Shown piece after piece: positions 28,669 to 40,885 of a stretch of DNA of 64,000 bases. The translations under genes and the position numbers were made by a program. The stretch is from positions 1-64,000 of the forward strand of contig RECY01000024.1 in NCBI GenBank assembly GCA_007693785.1, written 5' to 3'. Numbering within the stretch: position 1 is the first letter of the stretch; each line of letters begins with the position of its first letter. Source of the stretch: Phycisphaerales bacterium (GTDB taxonomy: Bacteria; Planctomycetota; Phycisphaerae; Phycisphaerales; UBA1924). The notes under the pieces are model-generated. The model did no database searches. It had not been told where the DNA came from and was given only the letters and a program-made list of their open reading frames with translations.

Positions 28669-28697
28669 GGTCGCCGGTTTCGCGAGAAGCTGATGCC

Positions 28698-28771
28698 GGG
28701 CGTATAGCTCAGTTGGCTAGAGCGCTGCTGTCACATAGCAGAGGTCACTGGTTCGAGTCCAGTTACGCCCA
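28698..28771 (+). tRNA. tRNA-Val (anticodon CAC), 3' end is an attachment site
   Basis: A full cloverleaf: acceptor GGGCGTA/TACGCCC, D arm GCTC-AGTTGGCTA-GAGC, anticodon stem CTGCT/AGCAG around loop GTCACAT (anticodon CAC), T arm ACTGG-TTCGAGT-CCAGT, discriminator A. CCA is not encoded. Base 32 of the loop is G, where a pyrimidine is usual. The last 21 bases (28751-28771) recur at 38224-38244, and an integrase gene runs into the tRNA from the other strand, so this is the attB of the element at 28772-38244. Its natural terminator now lies 9.5 kb away. Confidence 0.93.
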
Positions 28772-30083
28772 TTAACTTATTTTCCACAGAATCACACACG
28801 ATACCACAGCCAACCATAAGCCCTTGATTTTCATGGCTTTCCGGTTGGCTTCGTTGTTCCTTGGGTTTGTGTGGGCGCGCCTGTGTTGCCGGATTTGTTG
28901 CCATAGTTGTTGCCGGATTTGTTGCCGCCTTACCGATCCCCGCCGCAAGGTCAAAGTGTGCGTCCCGGGTTTGCAGGTAGTGCTGAGCCGCGATCATCGG
29001 GCTATGCCCGAGCCAGCCGGCGACGACGTGGGCCGGGAAGTGCTCCACCCAATCCGTCGCGCACGACGCCCGCAGGTTGTGGAACAGCCGGGGCCAGGGC
29101 TTCACACCCGCCCGGGCGATGATCCGTTCAAACTGAGTGCGAAGGTTCACCCGCCCATCCCGCAGGCGGGGCACCACGGCTTCCGCCCCCGGCTCGGCCC
29201 GGTCGAACAAGGCTTGCAGGATCGGGCGCAGTTCGGGGGCAATCGGGACCACCCGAACCGCGTGCCCTTCATGGCTGGCTGTTTTGGGGCTCCGAACGGT
29301 CATCCGGCCCTTGTCCCAAACAATGTCACCCCACCGCAGGCCGACGACTTCGGACGGGCAGCGGAGCCCGGCGAACCGCGACAGGGCGACGATCGCGCGC
29401 CATTCGTCATCGGGGCACGCCGCCAGAATCGACCGGATGGTTTCGACTGGGACGTAGAACGCGCGATCGGGGTTCGATTGCGAACCGGCCCGCAGGTCGG
29501 CAAACGGGCTGGAGTCCATCAAGCCCCAGCGTACCGCCCGCTTGAAGATCGCCCGCGCAACGTGAACACGCTTTGCCACTGTTGCCGGTGCCAGTTGCTT
29601 TGTGGTTTCGTTCCCGTCTTCGTCGGTCACGTTCACCGGCTCGGCGATCGACTTCCGCCAGCTATCCGCGTATGCCGGGGTAATTGTCACCAGCGGGGTA
29701 TCGTCGCCCAGGTGCGCCCGCAGACTGTCGGTTGTTTGCTTGTACGCCGCCATCGTTGATGCCTTCACCGACGCCGCCGCGCAGAACCGATCCAGCAGCA
29801 TCCCCACCGTTACTACCGCCGTGTCCCGTGGTTGGGCCAGCTCCAGCGCGACTACCCGGGCATGGATTCGATCATCGATCCGTTCCAGCCACCGCACAGC
29901 GTCGTAGTGCGGGGCCGTGTCGTGTTGCTTGGCTTCCAGCAGGTGCTCAAGCGCCGACAGGGCCAGCAGCGCGTTCCGTTCAGAACACTTGCCCAGCCGC
30001 AGGCTTTTCTGTTTCCCCGCCGTATCACGGAACATGATCCGCTTCAACTCGCCCCGCTCGCCTTCGCGTCCGATGCTCGCCAT
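28731..30083 (-). CDS. int: Tyrosine recombinase (integrase), truncated by integration
   Basis: Site-specific recombinase that should move the element. 450 residues as integrated. N-terminal arm-binding/SAM-like core domain (residues about 85-190: VGMLLDRFCAAASVKASTM), catalytic domain with Arg241 (RFAGLRCPSEV), His335 and Arg338 (HNLRASC), His360 (WLGHS) and Tyr369 (QHYLQT). A Thr/Asn-Pro-Ala linker (ATNPATTMATNPATQ) follows. The last codons (MGVTGLEPVTSAM) are read from the tRNA, and the stop lies in the anticodon loop. The same frame continues from the att core at the right end (38223-38006), so the excised circle should encode 516 residues. Confidence 0.92.
   Translation of the reverse strand: MASIGREGERGELKRIMFRDTAGKQKSLRLGKCSERNALLALSALEHLLEAKQHDTAPHYDAVRWLERIDDRIHARVVALELAQPRDTAVVTVGMLLDRFCAAASVKASTMAAYKQTTDSLRAHLGDDTPLVTITPAYADSWRKSIAEPVNVTDEDGNETTKQLAPATVAKRVHVARAIFKRAVRWGLMDSSPFADLRAGSQSNPDRAFYVPVETIRSILAACPDDEWRAIVALSRFAGLRCPSEVVGLRWGDIVWDKGRMTVRSPKTASHEGHAVRVVPIAPELRPILQALFDRAEPGAEAVVPRLRDGRVNLRTQFERIIARAGVKPWPRLFHNLRASCATDWVEHFPAHVVAGWLGHSPMIAAQHYLQTRDAHFDLAAGIGKAATNPATTMATNPATQARPHKPKEQRSQPESHENQGLMVGCGIVCDSVENKLMGVTGLEPVTSAM
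28751..28771 (+). repeat. Attachment site, left (within tRNA-Val)
   Basis: GTTCGAGTCCAGTTACGCCC plus A, the T-arm and acceptor end of the tRNA. Identical over 21 bases to 38224-38244. It keeps the tRNA gene intact after insertion. Confidence 0.92.
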
Positions 30084-30086
30084 GCG

Positions 30087-30467
30087 TCACAATCCCTTCG
30101 TCAATGCCGCCAACAACACGCCCCAAACGAACATCCACGCGACAGACAACACCAGCACTCTTGATCCCGAACGATCGCGGTTCGCCAGCCGGATTGTCCC
30201 AGCTACCAACCCGACCACGGGGACAAGGCACGCGAATACCAGCAATGTGGTATCCGGGTTTGTCGCGGGCGTCGATTCATCGTCGCGCCTGAAACCGCCG
30301 CCCTCGGTGGGAAAGTAAATGTGCCCGCTTTCGGAGTGAATCGCCGTAATGCTCACGCCCCGACGCGAGGCAAATTCCGCAACTTCTTCGACGCTGCCGA
30401 GTTTCACCGAAAGTTGCACAGACGCGCCGTTCTGGTCATCAACTCCGTGAACAATAAATGCTCTCAC
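30087..30467 (-). CDS. Small protein with two C-terminal membrane segments
   Basis: 126 residues, not recognised. The soluble N-terminal part (residues 1-65) has an alternating beta/alpha pattern (FIVHGVDDQNGASVQLSVKL, EEVAEFASRRGVSITAI, HIYFPTEGGGF). Two hydrophobic helices follow at about 72-92 (TTLLVFACLVPVVGLVAGTI) and 103-122 (VLVLSVAWMFVWGVLLAALT). It ends three bases before the integrase start. Probably an inner-membrane protein with its N-domain in the cytoplasm; function unknown. Confidence 0.7.
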   Translation of the reverse strand: MRAFIVHGVDDQNGASVQLSVKLGSVEEVAEFASRRGVSITAIHSESGHIYFPTEGGGFRRDDESTPATNPDTTLLVFACLVPVVGLVAGTIRLANRDRSGSRVLVLSVAWMFVWGVLLAALTKGL

Positions 30468-30471
30468 GGGC

Positions 30472-30585
30472 TCACCGTCCCTTCCGTGGTCTCGCCTTGG
30501 GCTCGATTGTAATTCGAAGCCCTAGGTAGTCCGCCAGCCGTTCGATCGTGTCCACCGTCATTCCGTGTAACAGTTGGCTATGGGA
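30472..30585 (-). pseudogene. Remnant of an XRE-family regulator
   Basis: Reading on in frame after the TAA of the next gene gives SHSQLLHGMTVDTIERLADY followed by LGLRITIEPKARPRKGR and a stop. TIERLADYLGLRI is the usual last part of short XRE helix-turn-helix proteins (second half of the HTH and final helix). The N-terminal helices are missing. An ATG at 30561 would give only 29 residues. I read it as a decayed regulator, possibly the element's former repressor. Confidence 0.5.
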
Positions 30586-31383
30586 TTATGGTTCAGGTAC
30601 TGCAAATTGAGTCCGTCCGGCTTCATCGAATAAACTCAGATACGGCCGGCCGTCGATCAGGACCAACTCGCCCCGTGTATGTCCGCGTGCATCTATCACC
30701 GCAAGCCCAGGGCGGTTTTTTGTACCACGTAGAATGACCATCCCCAACTCTGGATCGCCGACGCCCAGCATCACGTTTCCGCCTTCACGCAGCAGCATCA
30801 TGGCTTGTTGCCCGTCGTCATGCGTCAGAGCGATTCCGCCGGCAAACACGGTTGAAGATGATCGAGCAACCCGATCCCGAACCATCAACCCCCTTGTCGG
30901 TCGGCGATTATCGAGCGTTAGCTCTGGTGCTGTCTCAGTTCCCTGAAGTCGCAAGCCCGATCCATCATTACTCACGGTTGCAGCCAATACCGGACCGCCC
31001 TCCGTAGGCGTCATCCGCAGTTCAACTGAGTCTTCCCCTGCCAAGACTTGAACCGCATCTGCGCCGTTCGCGTGTCGCAGCCGAATACGCGGCGCAGTGT
31101 TCGCACCGACAAGTTCGACTCGTAACTTTCCTTCCTCGTCATATAGCGCAAGCCGTGGTCCAGCAGTGCCCATTTCCAGTATGCCACGCTCTCGGTTGTT
31201 CCCGTCGAACAGCACCACGCGATTCGCTCGTACCACACGCTCTCGCTGATTTGTCGCTCCCATCGTTCCGGCGACGATGAGTAATGCCAGCAGTCCAACA
31301 ACGCTTGCGCGGAGGCGGCCGTAGCTTCGTCGCATCGCTAAGAGCTCCCGTTCTACGCGTTCCAGACGATCACACGATTCCAC
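30586..31383 (-). CDS. Membrane-anchored beta-repeat protein
   Basis: 265 residues from GTG 31383 with AGGAGG seven bases upstream. A charged N-terminus, one membrane segment at about residues 24-43 (LRASVVGLLALLIVAGTMGA), then repeated beta units of the form VxLFDxNxRERGILEM / LALYDEEGKLRVELVG / GLAVIDARGHTRGELVLIDG / YLSLFDEAGRTQFAV. Such repeats occur in many uncharacterised bacterial proteins and probably fold as a beta-helix or stacked sheet outside the membrane. Base composition is lower in GC than most of the element. Cargo gene of unknown function. Confidence 0.75.
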   Translation of the reverse strand: MESCDRLERVERELLAMRRSYGRLRASVVGLLALLIVAGTMGATNQRERVVRANRVVLFDGNNRERGILEMGTAGPRLALYDEEGKLRVELVGANTAPRIRLRHANGADAVQVLAGEDSVELRMTPTEGGPVLAATVSNDGSGLRLQGTETAPELTLDNRRPTRGLMVRDRVARSSSTVFAGGIALTHDDGQQAMMLLREGGNVMLGVGDPELGMVILRGTKNRPGLAVIDARGHTRGELVLIDGRPYLSLFDEAGRTQFAVPEP

Positions 31384-31570: not shown

Positions 31571-32023
31571 CGACGCGCGACGGTCGGGGTGTTCCGGGTC
31601 ACTTCGGAAAAGGGGTACACAGGGCACGTCGCCCCACGCATCCGCGCCCTCGGGCGGTTCGGGCAAGGGGGGAAGGGGGTCGGGTGTCGCCCGGTCGGCG
31701 TCGATCGCCTCGCCGGTTGCGATCAGCCATGCCGGCGAGCCGGGGTGCGTTGGAAGTCCGAGTTCTTCCGCGACGCCCAGCCGTTCGGCCAACACGTAGC
31801 GCCCTTCCTCGCCGGCGACGGGCGCGGTCAGCATGAACAGCACGTCCAGCTTGTGTTGTCGCAGTTCGGCGACTTCGCCGGGCAACAGCTCGCCGCGCCA
31901 CGCGACGCGATCCGAGCCGACCGCGGCAAGCTCGACCCCACGCGACCCGAGCCCGCGGAGCAGTTCGGCGACCACCGGCGGAAGCTCGCCGATCCCTCTG
32001 AAGTTGGGACGGTGCGGGATCAC
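31523..32023 (-). CDS. Small protein with TubC-docking-like N-terminus
   Basis: 166 residues; ATG overlaps the primase stop (ATGA at 32020-32023), so the two are coupled. Residues 12-55 (ELPPVVAELLRGLGSRGVEL, then RVAWRGELLPGEVAELRQHK) resemble the TubC N-terminal docking fold, which is often found attached or next to primases of mobile elements. A GSPAWLIATGEA segment follows, then a Pro/Glu-rich stretch. The last 20 or so residues are read out of frame through a duplicate of its own 3' region, so the present C-terminus is probably not original. Function unknown; an accessory to the primase is inferred from coupling. Confidence 0.7.
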   Translation of the reverse strand: MIPHRPNFRGIGELPPVVAELLRGLGSRGVELAAVGSDRVAWRGELLPGEVAELRQHKLDVLFMLTAPVAGEEGRYVLAERLGVAEELGLPTHPGSPAWLIATGEAIDADRATPDPLPPLPEPPEGADAWGDVPCVPLFRSDPEHPDRRASRTGSGWQHTRARRRG

Positions 32024-34575
32024 AGCAGCCCACTCCAGCCGGCGGGCAGCGCGCCATTCTCCGCGGTCGCTTCACTTGCGACAGCGACGAAACCCCCCGC
32101 CGCGATACCGCCAGTAGGGGTTTCGTCGCATGGCGCAGCGTCGCCGCGCTGAGACACCAGCCGGACGCGCTTCGCCGGACGCCCGCCCTTCGCGCCGTCG
32201 CCATCCTGAACCCACGCCGCGACGCTCGACGCCACCAGTTCGCCCAGGGCCTTTGCGGCCCGTTCAGGGTCGCCGCGGAACGCGCTCGGGCCGCGGGTCA
32301 GGTCGCGGACCGTCGCCGTGCCGCCTTTCGATTCGATCCACTCCACCAGCGCCGCACGCTCGCGGTCTTCGGGCGAGGCGGTCAGCCCTTCCCGCGCATG
32401 CCGCTCGGCGTCCGCCGCGAAGCGTCCCCACGCCAGCGCCGCCCGCATCGTCGCCCCGTCGATCGGGCCGGCGTCGTCGGGCGTGCCACGCACCGCCCAG
32501 GTCGCCAGCGCGTGCAGCACGCCCGCGATCCGCAGCACCGCGCCGGGAAACTTGCTCGCCCATGCTCGGCGTTCGTAGTGCTCCCCGCCCGGCCGCATCG
32601 CCGGTTCAACTTCGCGACGGAAGGCGACGAACAGCGTGCCCGCCTCGGGGTCGAGCCGTACCGTCGCCGGCGTGTCGCGGGGCGCGTGCTCCAGCAGCCC
32701 GCGGATCAACCGATCCCACGCGCGGGCCAGCCGCTCGGGCACGGGTGGAGTTTCGATCTTGCGGAAGCCCAAATTGTCGGGCGGCCTCGACACCAGGAAC
32801 CGGGCGAGGAAGCCGTTGGTGCGTGCGTCCGCGTTCGCCCAAAGTTCTTCCACCGCTTCGGGTTGAGCGACGACCGCCAGCGCCGCCGCGGGGCGCGGAA
32901 CGTGGACGCTCTCGCGCCCCATCCGATCCTCGTGGATCGCGTCCCCCGCGTGCGCCTTGAGCAGTGTTCCCCAGGCGGGAGACTCGCCGTAGCGCCGGCC
33001 CGTGGTCGTGCGCAACACGTCCGCCTCGGGATCAGCAACCAACGCCCGCCCGCCGTGCCGCGCGAGGTGCCGAACCAGGGCCTCGGGCGTCGCGTCGGAA
33101 ATGACCAGGCGCGGGGCTTGGGGCACGTCGGGCAGCGTTTCCAGCTCCGCCGCCGCCGCGTCCGCGTCGTGTTTTGCGGCTTTGTATTGGTCGGGTTTCG
33201 CAGAAACGGCCTTTCGCCGCAGCGCGTCGTAGCGATCCTCAGCGAACGCCCGATCCCGCACAGCGTCGGCAATGAACGGCGCGAGGCGTTCGGCTTCTTC
33301 CCGCTCCCAAGCATTGACCGGCGCGGTCAACGCCCGGAACACCGCCGACTTCCGCGACCCGCTCGGCGCGAGCACCAGCGTCCACAGCGGGGCGGGCTCG
33401 ACCCATCCCCCGCCGTCGATTTCAACCACGCCCGCGCAGCACGCCGACGCGATCGACAGCGCAAGCATCGCCGCCATTTCGGGCGGGGTTTGCGTTGCCT
33501 CGCTCAGTGCCGCGAGAAACTCTCGTAGCTCGCTCAGGCGCTCGGGGAACACTTCGGCCAGGTCGAGCGTCGGGGCGAGCGCCGGAGCCGGCACAGTCAA
33601 TCCAGCCGAATCCTCGGGCTCACTCGCGTCAGCCAGTGCTTCAATCTCCGCGCGGATCGCGTCCGCGTCGCCGGCGCGATGCTCCACCAGGTCAGCCATG
33701 TCACCGCCTTCGGGCATCCCTGCCCAGAGTTCAACCAGCCGAACCACCCGCACCGACACCGCGCCCGCCGCGCTGGCGAGCCGCGCCACGTCCTCCGCGT
33801 ATTTCTCGCCGGCGTCGTCGTGGTCGGGGAGGATCACCACGTCTCGCCCGGCCATCGGGGACCAGTCCGCTTTGTTCGCAGACTTCGCCCCGTGGGGGCT
33901 TGTCGTCGCGACCAGCCCAGCCGCTCGCGCCGCGTCCGCCGCCTTCTCCCCTTCGCACACCCAGACCCGTGCGCCCGCCGGCGTCGCCAGCAACTCGGGT
34001 AAGCCGTACAGCCGGCGCGGCTCCGGCATCCCGCCGATACACCACCCCGACCCGTCCGGCAGCCGCGACACGGGGCGAATGGTCTTCCCGGTCGGCGTGT
34101 TCCAGCGTGCAACAACGCCCACCGGCTCGCCGCCGGCGTTGTGGTAGGTCCAACTCTCCGAGCGCGGGCCGAGCCGAGCCTCGATATACGCCATCGCTTC
34201 GCGGGCGGTCGGAAAGGTGCGGGGCTTGGGTTCGGGCCGGCGGCTTGCGACGAAACCCGCCGTCGCGATACCGCTAGCAGGGGTTTCGTCGCCGTCGCAG
34301 CGTCGCCGGGGCTTCGGCGCGTGCCCGTTGCGTCGCGTCGGGTCGTCCGCGAACAGGTCGGACCACTTCAAGCCGATCGCGCGCAGCACGTCCGACGTGT
34401 CGCATCCGCGCTGGCATTTCACCAACACCTTCCCGTTGTCTCCGGTGCCGATCGACAGGGAAGGGTTCCGGTCATCGTGGGCGGGGCACCGGCAGGACCA
34501 GCCTTCGCCGGATCGCTTGGGCGTGTGTCCGTGCTCGCGCAGGGCGGAGAGAATGCGGTTTACGGGGTCGCTCAT
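32020..34575 (-). CDS. CHC2-Toprim primase with DUF3987 domain
   Basis: Likely replication protein of the element, 851 residues. CHC2-type zinc finger in residues 24-65 (GWSCRCPAHDDRNPS, VKCQRGCDT), Toprim-like domain about 195-285 (GARVWVCEGEKAADAARAAG, DVVILPDHDDAGEKYAEDV), then a DUF3987 region from about 330 with a P-loop-like LAPSGSRKSAVF. The C-terminal part has winged-helix-like segments (LVEWIESKGGTATVRDL). Two palindromic repeats are inserted in frame: residues about 95-110 and 816-831 read GDETPASGIATAGFVA and CDETPTGGIAAGGFVA. Coupled by ATGA overlaps to the genes on both sides. Confidence 0.88.
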   Translation of the reverse strand: MSDPVNRILSALREHGHTPKRSGEGWSCRCPAHDDRNPSLSIGTGDNGKVLVKCQRGCDTSDVLRAIGLKWSDLFADDPTRRNGHAPKPRRRCDGDETPASGIATAGFVASRRPEPKPRTFPTAREAMAYIEARLGPRSESWTYHNAGGEPVGVVARWNTPTGKTIRPVSRLPDGSGWCIGGMPEPRRLYGLPELLATPAGARVWVCEGEKAADAARAAGLVATTSPHGAKSANKADWSPMAGRDVVILPDHDDAGEKYAEDVARLASAAGAVSVRVVRLVELWAGMPEGGDMADLVEHRAGDADAIRAEIEALADASEPEDSAGLTVPAPALAPTLDLAEVFPERLSELREFLAALSEATQTPPEMAAMLALSIASACCAGVVEIDGGGWVEPAPLWTLVLAPSGSRKSAVFRALTAPVNAWEREEAERLAPFIADAVRDRAFAEDRYDALRRKAVSAKPDQYKAAKHDADAAAAELETLPDVPQAPRLVISDATPEALVRHLARHGGRALVADPEADVLRTTTGRRYGESPAWGTLLKAHAGDAIHEDRMGRESVHVPRPAAALAVVAQPEAVEELWANADARTNGFLARFLVSRPPDNLGFRKIETPPVPERLARAWDRLIRGLLEHAPRDTPATVRLDPEAGTLFVAFRREVEPAMRPGGEHYERRAWASKFPGAVLRIAGVLHALATWAVRGTPDDAGPIDGATMRAALAWGRFAADAERHAREGLTASPEDRERAALVEWIESKGGTATVRDLTRGPSAFRGDPERAAKALGELVASSVAAWVQDGDGAKGGRPAKRVRLVSQRGDAAPCDETPTGGIAAGGFVAVASEATAENGALPAGWSGLL
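32084..32129. repeat. 46-bp palindromic repeat, copy A (inside primase 3' end)
   Basis: Arms GCGACGAAACCCC (32084-32096) and GGGGTTTCGTCGC (32117-32129) around a 20-base centre containing CCGCGATACCGCCAG. A conserved flank (GCAGCGTCGCC) follows. In the minus-strand frame it encodes DETPTGGIAAGGFV. Confidence 0.85.
34247..34292. repeat. 46-bp palindromic repeat, copy B (inside primase 5' part)
   Basis: Arms GCGACGAAACCC (34247-34258) and GGGGTTTCGTCGC (34280-34292), centre with TCGCGATACCGCTAG, followed by the flank CGTCGCAGCGTCGCC. It has the same length and the same reading phase as copy A and encodes DETPASGIATAGFV. Confidence 0.85.
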
Positions 34576-36018: not shown

Positions 36019-36702
36019 TCACCGATGCGCGATCCGGGCGCACCCCCGGCACGCCACGCCCGACGCCAGGGCGTACAGGTGAACCCGCTTCGCCCCGCAC
36101 CGCGGGCAGGTCAGGTAGAGCCGCGTTCCATAGCGGGCGTCCGGCTCGGCCACCACCACCACCCGCACCCCGGGGGCGTCGGGATCGTCCGCCGGGCGGG
36201 CGTCGATCGCTTCCACCCGCGCCGGGTCCAGCCCCTCGGTGAGCGCCTGCCGCCGGATCGCGTTCGCGTCGATGCGAGCCGGGAAGTCCGACACCCGCCA
36301 GCGTGCCCGCGGGCGGCCCGTCAGCTTCGCCGGCAGCTCACCGCCCCAGGCGTACCGCAGCACCCGGGCCGAAGCCGCCACGTCCGCCCCGGTCATCGCG
36401 AGCGACGTTTCGCACCAGGCGAGCAGCTCGCGGGCGTTTTGGTTCGGGGCCTTCTCCGGGCGCTCGGCCAGCGCCGCAAGGAACCGGGCGACCAGGGCCT
36501 CGCGGTCGGCGGCCGGGGCGTTGTCCAGCCACCCGCGCCGGATCGCCGTGCCCATCAACCGGCAGTCACCGCGGAAGTGCCGGGGGTCATCGAACAGGAT
36601 GCTAAACTTGGGGGGCGTGTCGCCGGCGTCGGTGCCGCCCGCTCCGCGAGCCGCCGGCGTCGATTCGGGAAACCCCTTCGCGGGGGTTGGGGGCGTCGTC
36701 AT
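36019..36702 (-). CDS. Unknown protein with C-terminal zinc ribbon
   Basis: 227 residues; ATG overlaps the polymerase stop (ATGA at 36699-36702). A disordered Pro/Gly N-terminus, a helical middle (FSILFDDPRHFRGDCRLMGT, LVARFLAALAERPEKAPNQN) and a C-terminal zinc ribbon YLTCPRCGAKRVHLYALASG followed by CRGCARIAHR. The helical part may be an adaptor; the ribbon is of the kind found in phage and transposon proteins. Coupling to the polymerase suggests they act together, but no function is known to me. Confidence 0.75.
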   Translation of the reverse strand: MTTPPTPAKGFPESTPAARGAGGTDAGDTPPKFSILFDDPRHFRGDCRLMGTAIRRGWLDNAPAADREALVARFLAALAERPEKAPNQNARELLAWCETSLAMTGADVAASARVLRYAWGGELPAKLTGRPRARWRVSDFPARIDANAIRRQALTEGLDPARVEAIDARPADDPDAPGVRVVVVAEPDARYGTRLYLTCPRCGAKRVHLYALASGVACRGCARIAHR

Positions 36703-38009
36703 GGGCGATCCCTTCCAGGGCGGGCGCTTCGGCCCGTCCCGTCCACGTCGGGCAAGTCCAGGTCCGGGGGCGCGCCGAAGGGGATGCGGCGCGGGGCCGT
36801 GCCGCGGGCGTCGTGCATCGCGCCCAGGTACACCACGTCCGCGCCGTACCGCAGATTGATCCGGTCCACCGCTTGCATGAGCGACGCCCGCGCCCGCTCG
36901 CCGTCGAACAGCGAGAGTTGGGCGTCGGCCCGCTCCAGCCCTTCCAGCCGTACGCCGACTTGCAGCACCCGCCCGCCCGGGGCGTCGGCCCACAGCGCCA
37001 GCAGCGCCCGGTGCAACGCCGCCGTGTCGTCCGTTGGGCGTACCGGCGTCCAGTCCCCCCACCCGCCGCCGTCAGCAGGGCGGATCGACAGCGAGAGCCG
37101 CGACGCCCGGTAGCCGAGCGAGCGCATCCGTTGGGCCGCCTTCGCCAGCAGGCGCAGGCTCACCGCCCGCGCCGCCTCGGGCGATCGGTGCGCCGGCGGC
37201 AGGACGTGTTGATGCCCGACCGTCCGCCGGTGGGTCCGCGGGCCGGGGTGTTGATCGCCGCGGAGCCAGTGCCACCAGTAGACGCCGAGCACGCTCCCCC
37301 ACGCCGCGCGGAGTTGTGCGGGCGTCCGGGCGTACAGGTCTTCCACGCTGGCGATCCCCGCCGCCCGTAGGCGTCGGTTGATCCCCTTGGAGATACCCGG
37401 TAGGTCCGTCAGGCGGAGCGCGAGCATCGGGCCGGGAAGCTCCGAGCGCTTCCAGACCGTCAGCCCGTCGGGCTTGCGGGAGCCGGCCGCGACTTTCGCC
37501 AGCAGCCGGTTCGGCGCGATCCCGACGGAGCAGGTGACGCACCCCACGCGCTCGCGAATCGCCCGCTTGATCCCCATCGCCAGCCGCTCGGCCACGTCGG
37601 GCGGGCGCTCATTCGCCATGAGTTCGCACCAGCATTCATCCACCGACTCGACCACCGACACCGGGAGCACCGTGTCGATCGCCGCGAGCAATTCGTGATG
37701 CACCCGGATGTACCGATCGGGGCGAGCTTGAACGATCGCGATGCCCGGGCAGAGCGTGCGGGCGTCCGCCACCCGGCACCCGGTCTTGACGCCGAAGGCT
37801 CGGGCTTCGTAGGACGTAGCGATACAACAGCCGGACGGGGCGGGAACGGGCGTCACGCCGACCGGGCGGCCGCGAAGCTCGGGGTGGTCCATTTGCTCCA
37901 CCGACGCAAAAAAGGCGTCCATATCCAGGAACAGGACCAGCAGTTCGGCGGGGGCGACCATGCCGACAATATACCGAACAAATACGGGATGGGAAGGGGT
38001 CGGGCTCAT
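36699..38009 (-). CDS. Y-family DNA polymerase (DinB/UmuC-like)
   Basis: Translesion polymerase, 436 residues from ATG 38009; an internal ATG at 37961 would give 420. Palm and fingers: VLFLDMDAFFASVEQ (Asp29, Asp31), SYEARAFGVKTG, and SVDECW with the catalytic Asp124-Glu125. Thumb HhH: ALRLTDLPGISKGINRRLRA; little finger domain about 270-400 (RSPEAARAVSLRLLAKAAQR). QLSLFDGE near the end is a clamp-binding-like motif. All catalytic acidic residues are intact. Carried by the element, with an ATGA overlap to the severed integrase tail upstream and to the zinc-ribbon gene downstream. Confidence 0.93.
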   Translation of the reverse strand: MSPTPSHPVFVRYIVGMVAPAELLVLFLDMDAFFASVEQMDHPELRGRPVGVTPVPAPSGCCIATSYEARAFGVKTGCRVADARTLCPGIAIVQARPDRYIRVHHELLAAIDTVLPVSVVESVDECWCELMANERPPDVAERLAMGIKRAIRERVGCVTCSVGIAPNRLLAKVAAGSRKPDGLTVWKRSELPGPMLALRLTDLPGISKGINRRLRAAGIASVEDLYARTPAQLRAAWGSVLGVYWWHWLRGDQHPGPRTHRRTVGHQHVLPPAHRSPEAARAVSLRLLAKAAQRMRSLGYRASRLSLSIRPADGGGWGDWTPVRPTDDTAALHRALLALWADAPGGRVLQVGVRLEGLERADAQLSLFDGERARASLMQAVDRINLRYGADVVYLGAMHDARGTAPRRIPFGAPPDLDLPDVDGTGRSARPGRDRP

Positions 38010-38223
38010 TCCCCGGGCTTCCCACTAGCCGACGCCGCGACCATCGCAACGATGCCAGCCCGGACGGCTTCGGGCAGGTCGGCCCACGCCGCGACCACGC
38101 CCGCGAGCCGGGGATCGGTTGGCTTCGCCACCCCCTCCGAATCACCGAACCGTGCGCCGGTGTTGCCGGATTTGTTGCCGTCCCACCCGGACACTCCCGA
38201 TTTCCTCGGAGAAAACGGGGGTA
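38006..38223 (-). pseudogene. int: Severed C-terminal coding part of the integrase
   Basis: 72 codons, open from the att core to TGA 38006. Starting from the 21-base att core it is in the same frame as the integrase end at 28751: GVTGLE then LPPFSPRKSGVSGWDGN and VVAAWADLPEAVRAGIVAMV. In the circle it would complete the integrase (residues 445-516) and overlap the polymerase start. As integrated it is preceded by a chance chromosomal extension up to ATG 38278, which I do not count as a separate gene. AWxxLPEAVRAGIxAMV resembles tails I associate with other planctomycete integrases (from memory). Confidence 0.75.
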
Positions 38224-38244
38224 GTTCGAGTCCAGTTACGCCCA
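38224..38244 (+). repeat. Attachment site, right
   Basis: Exact 21-base copy of the tRNA-Val 3' end at 28751-28771. It has no other tRNA parts upstream and marks the right boundary of the element. Confidence 0.92.
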
Positions 38245-38273
38245 CTTCTTGAATCGAGTTTTCGGGCGGTTTC

Positions 38274-38304
38274 CCCATGATTCCTATGGAGTCATGGGTT
38301 TTTC
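38274..38304 (+). terminator. Stranded terminator of tRNA-Val
   Basis: CCCATGATTCC (38274-38284) pairs with GGAGTCATGGG (38288-38298) with one T-G wobble and a TAT loop, followed by TTTTTC. It lies 29 bases after the right att site, where the terminator of the uninterrupted tRNA gene should be. Confidence 0.8.
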
Positions 38305-38365
38305 TGCGTTCATCATTTGACGGAGCGTTGGGATGTCTTGGGGGGCGGCTACCCTATGGTGAGGT

Positions 38366-40885
38366 ATGGACGAGGCGGTGACGAGAAGTGTGGAGCCGGG
38401 GGCGGCAACTTCGGGTGAGATCCCGTGGAGCGGTCCTCTTTCCGGCTCGGCGGGGTCGGGGGGTGCGGTCGGCGGGGGGGAGTTGCTGGAGGGGGACGAG
38501 ATCGCGAATTACCGCGTGCTCGGGCGGCTTGGTGAGGGAGGCTTCGGGGCGGTTTTTGCGGCGGACCAGCTTGAGCCGGTGCGTCGGCGTGTTGCGATCA
38601 AGGTGCTGAAGCTCGGGATGGACTCGGATCGCGTGATCGCGCGGTTCGAGGCCGAGCGTCAGGCGCTGGCGATGATGGACCACCCGAGCATCGCGACGGT
38701 GCTGGACGCGGGGCGGACCAAGCTGGGGCGCCCGTACTTTGTGATGGAGTACGTGCGTGGGTTGCCCATCACGGCCTACTGCGACGAGGCGCGGCTGGGC
38801 GTCCGCGAGCGGATCAAGCTGTTCCGCGAGGTCTGCCACGCGGTGCAGCACGCACACCAGAAGGGCGTGATTCACCGGGATCTGAAGCCGAGCAATGTGC
38901 TGGTGACGCTCGATAACGGGCGAGCGATCCCGAAGGTGATCGACTTCGGGATCGCGAAGGCGACGCGGGACCGCAGCGGGGACGAGGCGGTCTTCACGCA
39001 GGTGCACCAGATGCTCGGCACGCCGGCCTACATGAGCCCCGAGCAGGCGAAGGGTTCGGCGCTCGACGTGGATACGCGGAGCGATATCTACTCGCTCGGG
39101 GCGATGCTGTATGAGTTGCTGGTGGGCTCGACGCCGCTGCGGGATCAGGACGTGCGCGAATCGTCCATCGCGGACCTGCAGCGGCTGATCACGGAAAAAG
39201 AAGCGACGCGTCCGTCGTCGAGGCTGGACGAGCTCGTAGACCGCGGGGCGCAGGTCGCGCGTGCTCGATCGACCGAGGCGAAGAAGCTGCGGGCGGTGGT
39301 CGCGGGGGACCTGGACTGGATCTGCCTGCGGTGCCTGGATAAATCGCGTTCGCACCGGTACGCGACGGCGAACGAGCTGAGCGACGATCTCGGGCGTCAC
39401 CTGGAGTCCCGCCCGATCGTGGCGCGGTCGCCCTCGCCGGTGACGATGACCGCCAAGTTTGTGCGCCGGCACCGGTGGCAGGTCACGGCGGCGGCGGCGA
39501 TCGCGGTGCTGTTTGTCGCTGGCTTTGTGGGGACGTCGGTGGGGTGGGCGCGAAAGGCCGAGGAGTCCGCACGGCTTCGGTTCACGCTCGATTTCTTTAC
39601 CGAAGCGCTCGCGGGCGCTTCGGGCCAGGAGTCGGCGGCGGCGATCTGGCGCGATGAGCCCGCGCTGACGCTCGGCGACGCGCTCTCGCGTGCCGAGCCG
39701 ATGATCCGGGATCGGTTCGCGGAAGAGCCGATGCTGGAGTCCACGATCCGCCAGCTCATCGGCCTGGCGCAGCTCCGGGCGGGTCGCTTCGAGGACGCGG
39801 GGTCGCAACTCGCCCAGGCGCTCGCGGCGCGGGAGCGACTGCTCGGAGCGGACGATCCGAAGACGCTGGAGTTGTTGCTCCCGCTCGCGGAGGCGACGAG
39901 CAAGGCGGGGCAGTTCGAGCGTGCCGTCGCGATGGCGCGGGATGCTTACCAGCGTCACGAGCGGGTCTTCGGGGCGAGGGCGTCGCGGACGCGCGCGGTG
40001 GCGCTGTGGGTGGCGCGGTGGTTCGGCTCCGGGTACCGGTTCGAGGACGCGGCTCGCTATTTCGACCTCGCGGTCCTGGAGCGTGCGGACGGGCTGGACC
40101 TGGACGATCCGATCACGCTCGCGGCGACGGTCGATCGCGTCAGCGTGTACGCGAGCGAGGGTCGCCTCGCGCAGGCGGAGGCGACGCTGCGACAGGTCCG
40201 TTCGCGCGTGGCGAATCTGCCGGAATCACAGGCGGGGCTGCGGGAGAATTTCGATCGTCGGCTCGGCTGGGTGCTGGTGCTGCGAGGCAAGTACAGCGAG
40301 GCGATCGAGCACCTGTCCCGGGACGCGCAGCTCAACGGGCTGCCGGCCGACAGCGTGCGCGGGAGCCTGCTGGCGTGGGCCGTGGGGCGGAGCGGGGACG
40401 CGGAACGTGCGGGAGCGATGTTCGCGGCGCTTTTGGAGCAGGAGCGTCGGGAGGGTGGCACGCCGTTCCGCGAGATTTTCACGCGTTTGCACTACGCCGA
40501 CGTGCTGCTGGAGCACGGGCGAGCGGACGATGCGGCGACGCAGGCGCGTCTCGCGATCGAGCGGTACGACGGGCAGGGCTTCCCGCCCGATCCGGACCGG
40601 ATGTGGGGTCGTGCGCTCTTGGCGGTGGCTGCGATCGAGAGCGGCGACGCGAGCATCGCGTCGTGGGCGTTGGGCGAGGCGTTGGCGATCGAGTCGGCGT
40701 ACCCGGAGCACACGCTTTACCGCCCGCTGACACGGTTTGTGCAGGCGAGCATCGCGCGGGCCGGCGGGGATGCCGAAGCCGCCCAACGGATCGGGGCGGA
40801 AGCTCGTGAGTTGGCGCTCAAGATCTATGGCCCCGAGCATCGGCTTCTCGGGCGCATCGAGCGTTTGCTCGGCGAAACACCCTGA
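38366..40885 (+). CDS. Membrane Ser/Thr protein kinase with TPR-like tail
   Basis: Pkn-type (Hanks) kinase, 839 residues. Kinase domain about 48-330: LGRLGEGGFGAVFAAD (P-loop), AIKVLK (Lys), VIHRDLKPSNVLV (catalytic loop), VIDFGIAKA (DFG), MLGTPAYMSPEQAKG (activation segment). A membrane segment at about 371-390 (TAAAAIAVLFVAGFVGTSVG) is followed by a roughly 450-residue outer domain of helical repeats (RAGRFEDAGSQLAQALAARE, LLLPLAEATSKAGQFERAVA) like the TPR tails of planctomycete kinases. Substrate unknown. It lies right after the integration site and is convergent with the next gene. Confidence 0.92.
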   Translation: MDEAVTRSVEPGAATSGEIPWSGPLSGSAGSGGAVGGGELLEGDEIANYRVLGRLGEGGFGAVFAADQLEPVRRRVAIKVLKLGMDSDRVIARFEAERQALAMMDHPSIATVLDAGRTKLGRPYFVMEYVRGLPITAYCDEARLGVRERIKLFREVCHAVQHAHQKGVIHRDLKPSNVLVTLDNGRAIPKVIDFGIAKATRDRSGDEAVFTQVHQMLGTPAYMSPEQAKGSALDVDTRSDIYSLGAMLYELLVGSTPLRDQDVRESSIADLQRLITEKEATRPSSRLDELVDRGAQVARARSTEAKKLRAVVAGDLDWICLRCLDKSRSHRYATANELSDDLGRHLESRPIVARSPSPVTMTAKFVRRHRWQVTAAAAIAVLFVAGFVGTSVGWARKAEESARLRFTLDFFTEALAGASGQESAAAIWRDEPALTLGDALSRAEPMIRDRFAEEPMLESTIRQLIGLAQLRAGRFEDAGSQLAQALAARERLLGADDPKTLELLLPLAEATSKAGQFERAVAMARDAYQRHERVFGARASRTRAVALWVARWFGSGYRFEDAARYFDLAVLERADGLDLDDPITLAATVDRVSVYASEGRLAQAEATLRQVRSRVANLPESQAGLRENFDRRLGWVLVLRGKYSEAIEHLSRDAQLNGLPADSVRGSLLAWAVGRSGDAERAGAMFAALLEQERREGGTPFREIFTRLHYADVLLEHGRADDAATQARLAIERYDGQGFPPDPDRMWGRALLAVAAIESGDASIASWALGEALAIESAYPEHTLYRPLTRFVQASIARAGGDAEAAQRIGAEARELALKIYGPEHRLLGRIERLLGETP

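Follow-up and report, generated by a model that had tools for sequence, protein, structure and literature searches.

The window, a stretch of 64,000 nucleotides from a Phycisphaerales bacterium whose genome comprises 3.06 Mb in 45 contigs, carries a tRNA-integrated island with its attP inside the 3' end of the integrase gene (int; for the coordinates of the features see Table 1). The Pol IV-like polymerase encoded within this island is probably cargo that is transcribed from a conserved promoter of its own and starts at 37961, so that closure of the excised circle would serve to rebuild attP and the integrase C-terminus and would not be the main switch of the polymerase. A preliminary description of the same DNA had proposed such a switch, in which excision and closure turn on the polymerase and later genes via integrase transcription and coupled translation from an ATG at 38009. 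The specific claim on the polymerase mostly falls, as detailed below.

Table 1. Features of the island and its borders (positions in the window).
Feature	Position	Strand	Remark
tRNA-Val(CAC) gene	28698..28771	+	target of integration; the end of the element restores it
att core, tRNA side, GTTCGAGTCCAGTTACGCCCA	28751..28771		3' end of the tRNA-Val gene
Tyrosine integrase, chromosomal form, 450 aa	28731..30083	-	ends within the tRNA gene; Pfam Phage_integrase 2.6e-13
Three overlapping 19-nt direct repeats in 12-bp steps, 3' part of int	28884..28926	-	probable arm-type Int sites
DUF3987 primase-helicase	32020..34575	-	likely replication gene of the element
Zinc-ribbon gene, 227 aa	36019..36702	-	ATG overlaps the polymerase stop; GGAAGGGA upstream
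Y-family (Pol IV-like) DNA polymerase, 420 aa	36699..37961	-	likely true start at 37961
Conserved box TTTGTTCGGTATATTGTCGG	37963..37982	-	overlaps the -10 element
Predicted polymerase promoter (TTCCCA, 16 bp, TATATT)	37968..37995	-	homologous promoters in relatives
ATGA overlap of tail stop and first polymerase-frame ATG	38006..38009	-	no Shine-Dalgarno
Severed integrase tail, 72 aa	38006..38223	-	joined in frame to int in the circle only
20-nt repeat in the tail, matching the repeats in int	38161..38180	-	other side of the core; probable arm-type site
att core, tail side, exact copy of GTTCGAGTCCAGTTACGCCCA	38224..38244		
Terminator-like hairpin	38274..38298	+	outside the element; probable displaced tRNA-Val terminator

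The element, integrated at the tRNA-Val gene, measures 9,473 bp between the att copies, which match at 21 of 21 positions. The chromosomal integrase reads into the att core and has the C-terminus GVTGLE-PVTSAM. Judged from the sequence, circle closure swaps the last six residues of this form for the tail, which gives a predicted in-frame enzyme of 516 aa (GVTGLE-LPPFSPRKSG...ASASGKPGE) ending at a TGA at 38008-38006. The identical att copies and the in-frame join bear out the earlier view that the circle puts int and tail upstream of the polymerase, and the proposed series of int, tail, polymerase and zinc ribbon is likewise correct: on the minus strand the stop of the tail overlaps a polymerase-frame ATG (38009-38007) in an ATGA, and a like overlap of stop and ATG joins the polymerase to the zinc-ribbon gene. 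The hairpin beyond the tail-side core is probably the terminator of the tRNA-Val gene, moved away by the insertion. With the terminator displaced, tRNA-Val transcription may run antisense into int (cf. PMC13023037). A search for an empty site using the right flank returned kinase paralogues only. It might be argued that the island is decayed and has lost excision, in which case the junction, tail and overlap would have no present role. Such elements do decay, as a degenerate tail plus polymerase remnant in the same genome shows, but the att copies are identical, the core has intact repeats on either side and the int, tail, polymerase, zinc-ribbon and primase-helicase frames are all open, which makes decay of this island very unlikely.

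The island belongs to a widespread family. A search with the tail gave matches in 88 of the 201 genomes of the order, and 80 tail loci were read. A script that joined int and tail across the direct repeat, followed by a length filter, left 20 relatives, the window and three cases that were rejected and not counted (L061, L082 and L092, with the wrong repeat or the wrong tail frame). In this way in-frame int-tail fusions across att repeats were rebuilt in 20 relatives at many tRNA genes, the targets including those for Lys, Val, Phe, Gly, Ile, Ala, Arg, Ser, Met, Glu and SeC (ARAGORN calls). The upstream frame matched the window integrase directly in 11 of the 20 and a profile of those 11 in another four; three more showed the recombinase HxLR motif. 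Within the tail motif LAAVVAAWPDLPPAIRAGIVAMVKAA synonymous positions are the more variable ones (pS 0.56 versus pN 0.31 in 77 tails; the W and one L of the motif belonged to the extraction pattern, and their invariance is no independent evidence), and the last part of the tail is conserved across the order. Constraint at the protein level, on a tail that only the circle can join to int, suggests that the circle form is of some importance. The result that holds is a group of bacterial islands, spread over the order and open to test, in which the integrase C-terminus takes one form in the chromosome and another in the circle. A further integrase of this family (35%), interrupted by a single TGA, lies on a 12-kb contig (G000:C42:4869-5990, L041).

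The core is flanked by repeats (in the window CGGCAACAAATCCGGCAACA, with three copies on the int side and one on the tail side). A direct repeat in the same orientation, 12-26 bp long as against a mean length of 8-9 bp in codon-shuffled controls, flanks the core in 19 of the 21 elements tested; its distance to the core is 101-167 bp towards int and 39-90 bp towards the tail. The sequence of the repeat differs from element to element. The repeats lie inside coding sequence at fairly constant spacing in the window, L048, L050, L054, L060, L097, L120, L126 and others, and they look like arm-type Int sites that may change together with the integrase. The flanking repeats are probable arm-type integrase sites; as such, closure would rebuild a full attP together with an integrase with another C-terminus, and the tail DNA would also be one attP arm, which provides a second reason for the position of the tail. 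Most likely, therefore, closure rebuilds attP and an integrase C-terminus as in myxophage Mx8, and it may add integrase read-through downstream.

The polymerase contains the IMS (4.2e-38) and IMS_C (1.1e-12) domains and the stretches FLDMDAFF and SVDE, including the catalytic acidic residues of the Y-family. With DNA polymerase IV/DinB it shares both domains and the SVDE catalytic stretch, and among solved structures its best relatives are Pol IV chains. It differs in that the Pol IV models of NCBIfam, although the best ones for this protein, stay under their cut-offs, and in a borderline DUF4113 at its C-terminus. The enzyme had been counted among the replication genes, but it is better described as Pol IV-like translesion cargo, the likely replication gene being the DUF3987 primase-helicase. 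In five relatives (L047, L049, L053, L064 and L065) the zinc-ribbon gene is kept and its homologue directly follows the tail with no polymerase in between, which indicates that the polymerase is cargo placed in the gap between tail and zinc ribbon.

The ATG at 38009 is probably not the start of the polymerase, as the relatives start at the equivalent of 37961. A start at 38009 would add sixteen codons over a stretch that is promoter DNA in the relatives, and in-frame stops precede the equivalent of 37961 in L130, L132, L133, L137, L138, L141, L146 and L152. Solved Pol IV chains align only from around residue 7 of the protein that starts at 37961. In addition, a remnant on contig C8 of the same genome (17573-17768; L045, L009) has CTG in place of ATG 38009 and retains the inner ATG. 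This remnant, which consists of a degenerate tail end and polymerase start and adjoins a serine/threonine kinase gene, is a decayed sister element; being broken, it was rejected as an intact comparison and is of use solely for the non-retention of ATG 38009. Of 72 tails, 16 have a start codon that overlaps the tail stop and opens a frame of 70 aa or more, several of these without a Shine-Dalgarno sequence; the overlap by itself is therefore unremarkable, and the ATGA alone was rejected as evidence for coupling.

Directly ahead of 37961 the arrangement TTCCCA-16-TATATT-GTCGGC-ATG is found, the only sigma70-like site in 37900-38400, which ends 6 nt before the ATG. Typical relatives (L130, L133) have TTGACA-16-TATATT-TTAGGA-ATG, and sites resembling TTGACA/G-16/17-TATATT, together with the same box, occupy this position in relatives whose proteins are only around 47-54% identical. 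A weight matrix built from nine relatives, not including the window, scored 29.0 bits at the box and 6.4 bits at the next best position in the 64 kb. Since these nine had been chosen by eye, a second, unselected test was made on all 24 relatives with a located start: the 15-mer with up to 3 mismatches was present in the 120 nt upstream in 10 of the 24, as compared to 0.7% of random segments from the same loci. The nearest relative (L127, 64% identical) has TTGACG-16-TACTCT directly ahead of its ATG; no tail or element gene was found beside it. Considering that the -35 element TTCCCA is weaker than the TTGACA of the relatives, the promoter in the window may be weak. The box was not found ahead of the recognisable SOS genes of the genome (SOS regulon test), and the papers searched yielded no LexA motif for these bacteria and nothing direct on planctomycete cases. 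L130, L132 and L133 have, some 30-45 nt ahead of the box, a half-site in inverted orientation (TACCGAACA or TACCAAACA) opposite TGTTCGGTA on the other side of the -35 region, an arrangement that resembles a wide palindromic operator; a facing half-site TACCGAACA/TACCAAACA was not seen in the window.

As the predicted promoter lies inside the element, the polymerase has it before and after excision alike and can probably be transcribed without excision. The polymerase would be expected to be transcribed in the integrated element as well as in the circle, and an mRNA that begins at 37961 would have almost no leader. The preliminary description had itself named a strong promoter just upstream of the polymerase, together with equal expression in both states, as evidence against the switch; of these, a promoter is predicted there, be it with a -35 element weaker than that of the relatives. 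The proposal that closure switches on the polymerase and the later genes by integrase transcription and by translation coupled at ATG 38009 does have a real basis in the gene order and the ATGA overlap, and several relatives couple the tail to the next gene by a Shine-Dalgarno sequence plus ATGA, including the zinc-ribbon gene of L047. Moreover, the minus strand showed no terminator on the path from int to polymerase (28690-30700 and 37900-38400), so that int transcription in the circle may well reach the polymerase. Against this proposal stand the conserved predicted promoter inside the element directly ahead of the likely start, the lack of a Shine-Dalgarno sequence at 38009 and the loss of that ATG in the C8 remnant; furthermore, a crude scan of 28690-30700 found no sigma70-like promoter before int. 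Taken together, closure as the switch of the polymerase appears unlikely. In the preferred reading, with the polymerase under its own promoter, read-through from int in the circle may add to the transcription of the polymerase and zinc-ribbon genes.

Several known systems resemble the island in part. A precedent for an attP in int combined with a changed C-terminus is myxophage Mx8, whose int coding sequence contains attP and acquires a new 3' end on integration (PMC6070905, PMC4383910). Like Mx8, the window element has a core within int, a new int 3' end after integration and a catalytic part that is left untouched, and in the circle its C-terminus is longer or different in frame; the core within int and the other C-terminus are shared by the 20 relatives. 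The differences are that the core here coincides with the 3' part of a tRNA gene, that the island family spans an order of planctomycete-like bacteria and uses many tRNA targets, and that downstream genes adjoin the tail; a change in integrase activity has been shown for Mx8 only. The suicidal (SSV-type) integrases of archaea also have an att inside int, often at tRNA genes, and their gene is split on integration, but in those the split severs the catalytic domain and inactivates the enzyme (PMC8371274), whereas the window integrase loses a C-terminal extension only and keeps the complete Phage_integrase domain (residues 215-375). For Tn916, the account in PMC11658703, which cites Celli and Trieu-Cuot 1998, is that closure allows transcripts to run across the joint into genes for which the integrated copy has no promoter. 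By that account, the likeness is that a closed circle would let transcription cross the joint into genes of the other end, and the difference is that the first gene after the joint in the window has its own predicted conserved promoter (37995-37968). Finally, ICEKp1 is likewise a tRNA-integrated element that displaces the tRNA terminator, and it shows state-dependent int expression from the tRNA promoter (PMC13023037). This state-dependent expression belongs to ICEKp1, where int is read from the tRNA promoter, whereas int in the window faces the tRNA head-on.

As to the coupled series that had been proposed, the gene order stands, and coupling is plausible as a general trait, but the link at ATG 38009 suffers from the absence of a Shine-Dalgarno sequence. 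In the window the polymerase and zinc-ribbon genes are linked by the stop/ATG overlap at 36702, behind GGAAGGGA. A tail with a Shine-Dalgarno sequence and a stop over the ATG of the next gene is present in L047 (zinc ribbon), L055, L057, L073, L085, L101 and L115, which makes coupling after closure a plausible general trait of these elements, and the older link may have been that of tail to zinc ribbon. Somewhat doubtful, yet possible, is the wider idea of a tRNA-island family in which integration exchanges the C-terminus of the integrase and closure subjects the first downstream gene to transcription from int and to start-stop coupled translation. If true, a single recombination event would switch both enzyme form and gene expression, the first downstream gene having been ancestrally perhaps the zinc ribbon. 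Between tail and zinc ribbon, L047, L049, L053 and L065 have the motif GGGGTTTCNNGAATCGAC after a CCCCC/GGGGG hairpin-like stretch; the sole copy of GGGGTTTCNNGAATCGAC in the window lies at 36659-36676, inside the start region of the zinc-ribbon gene.
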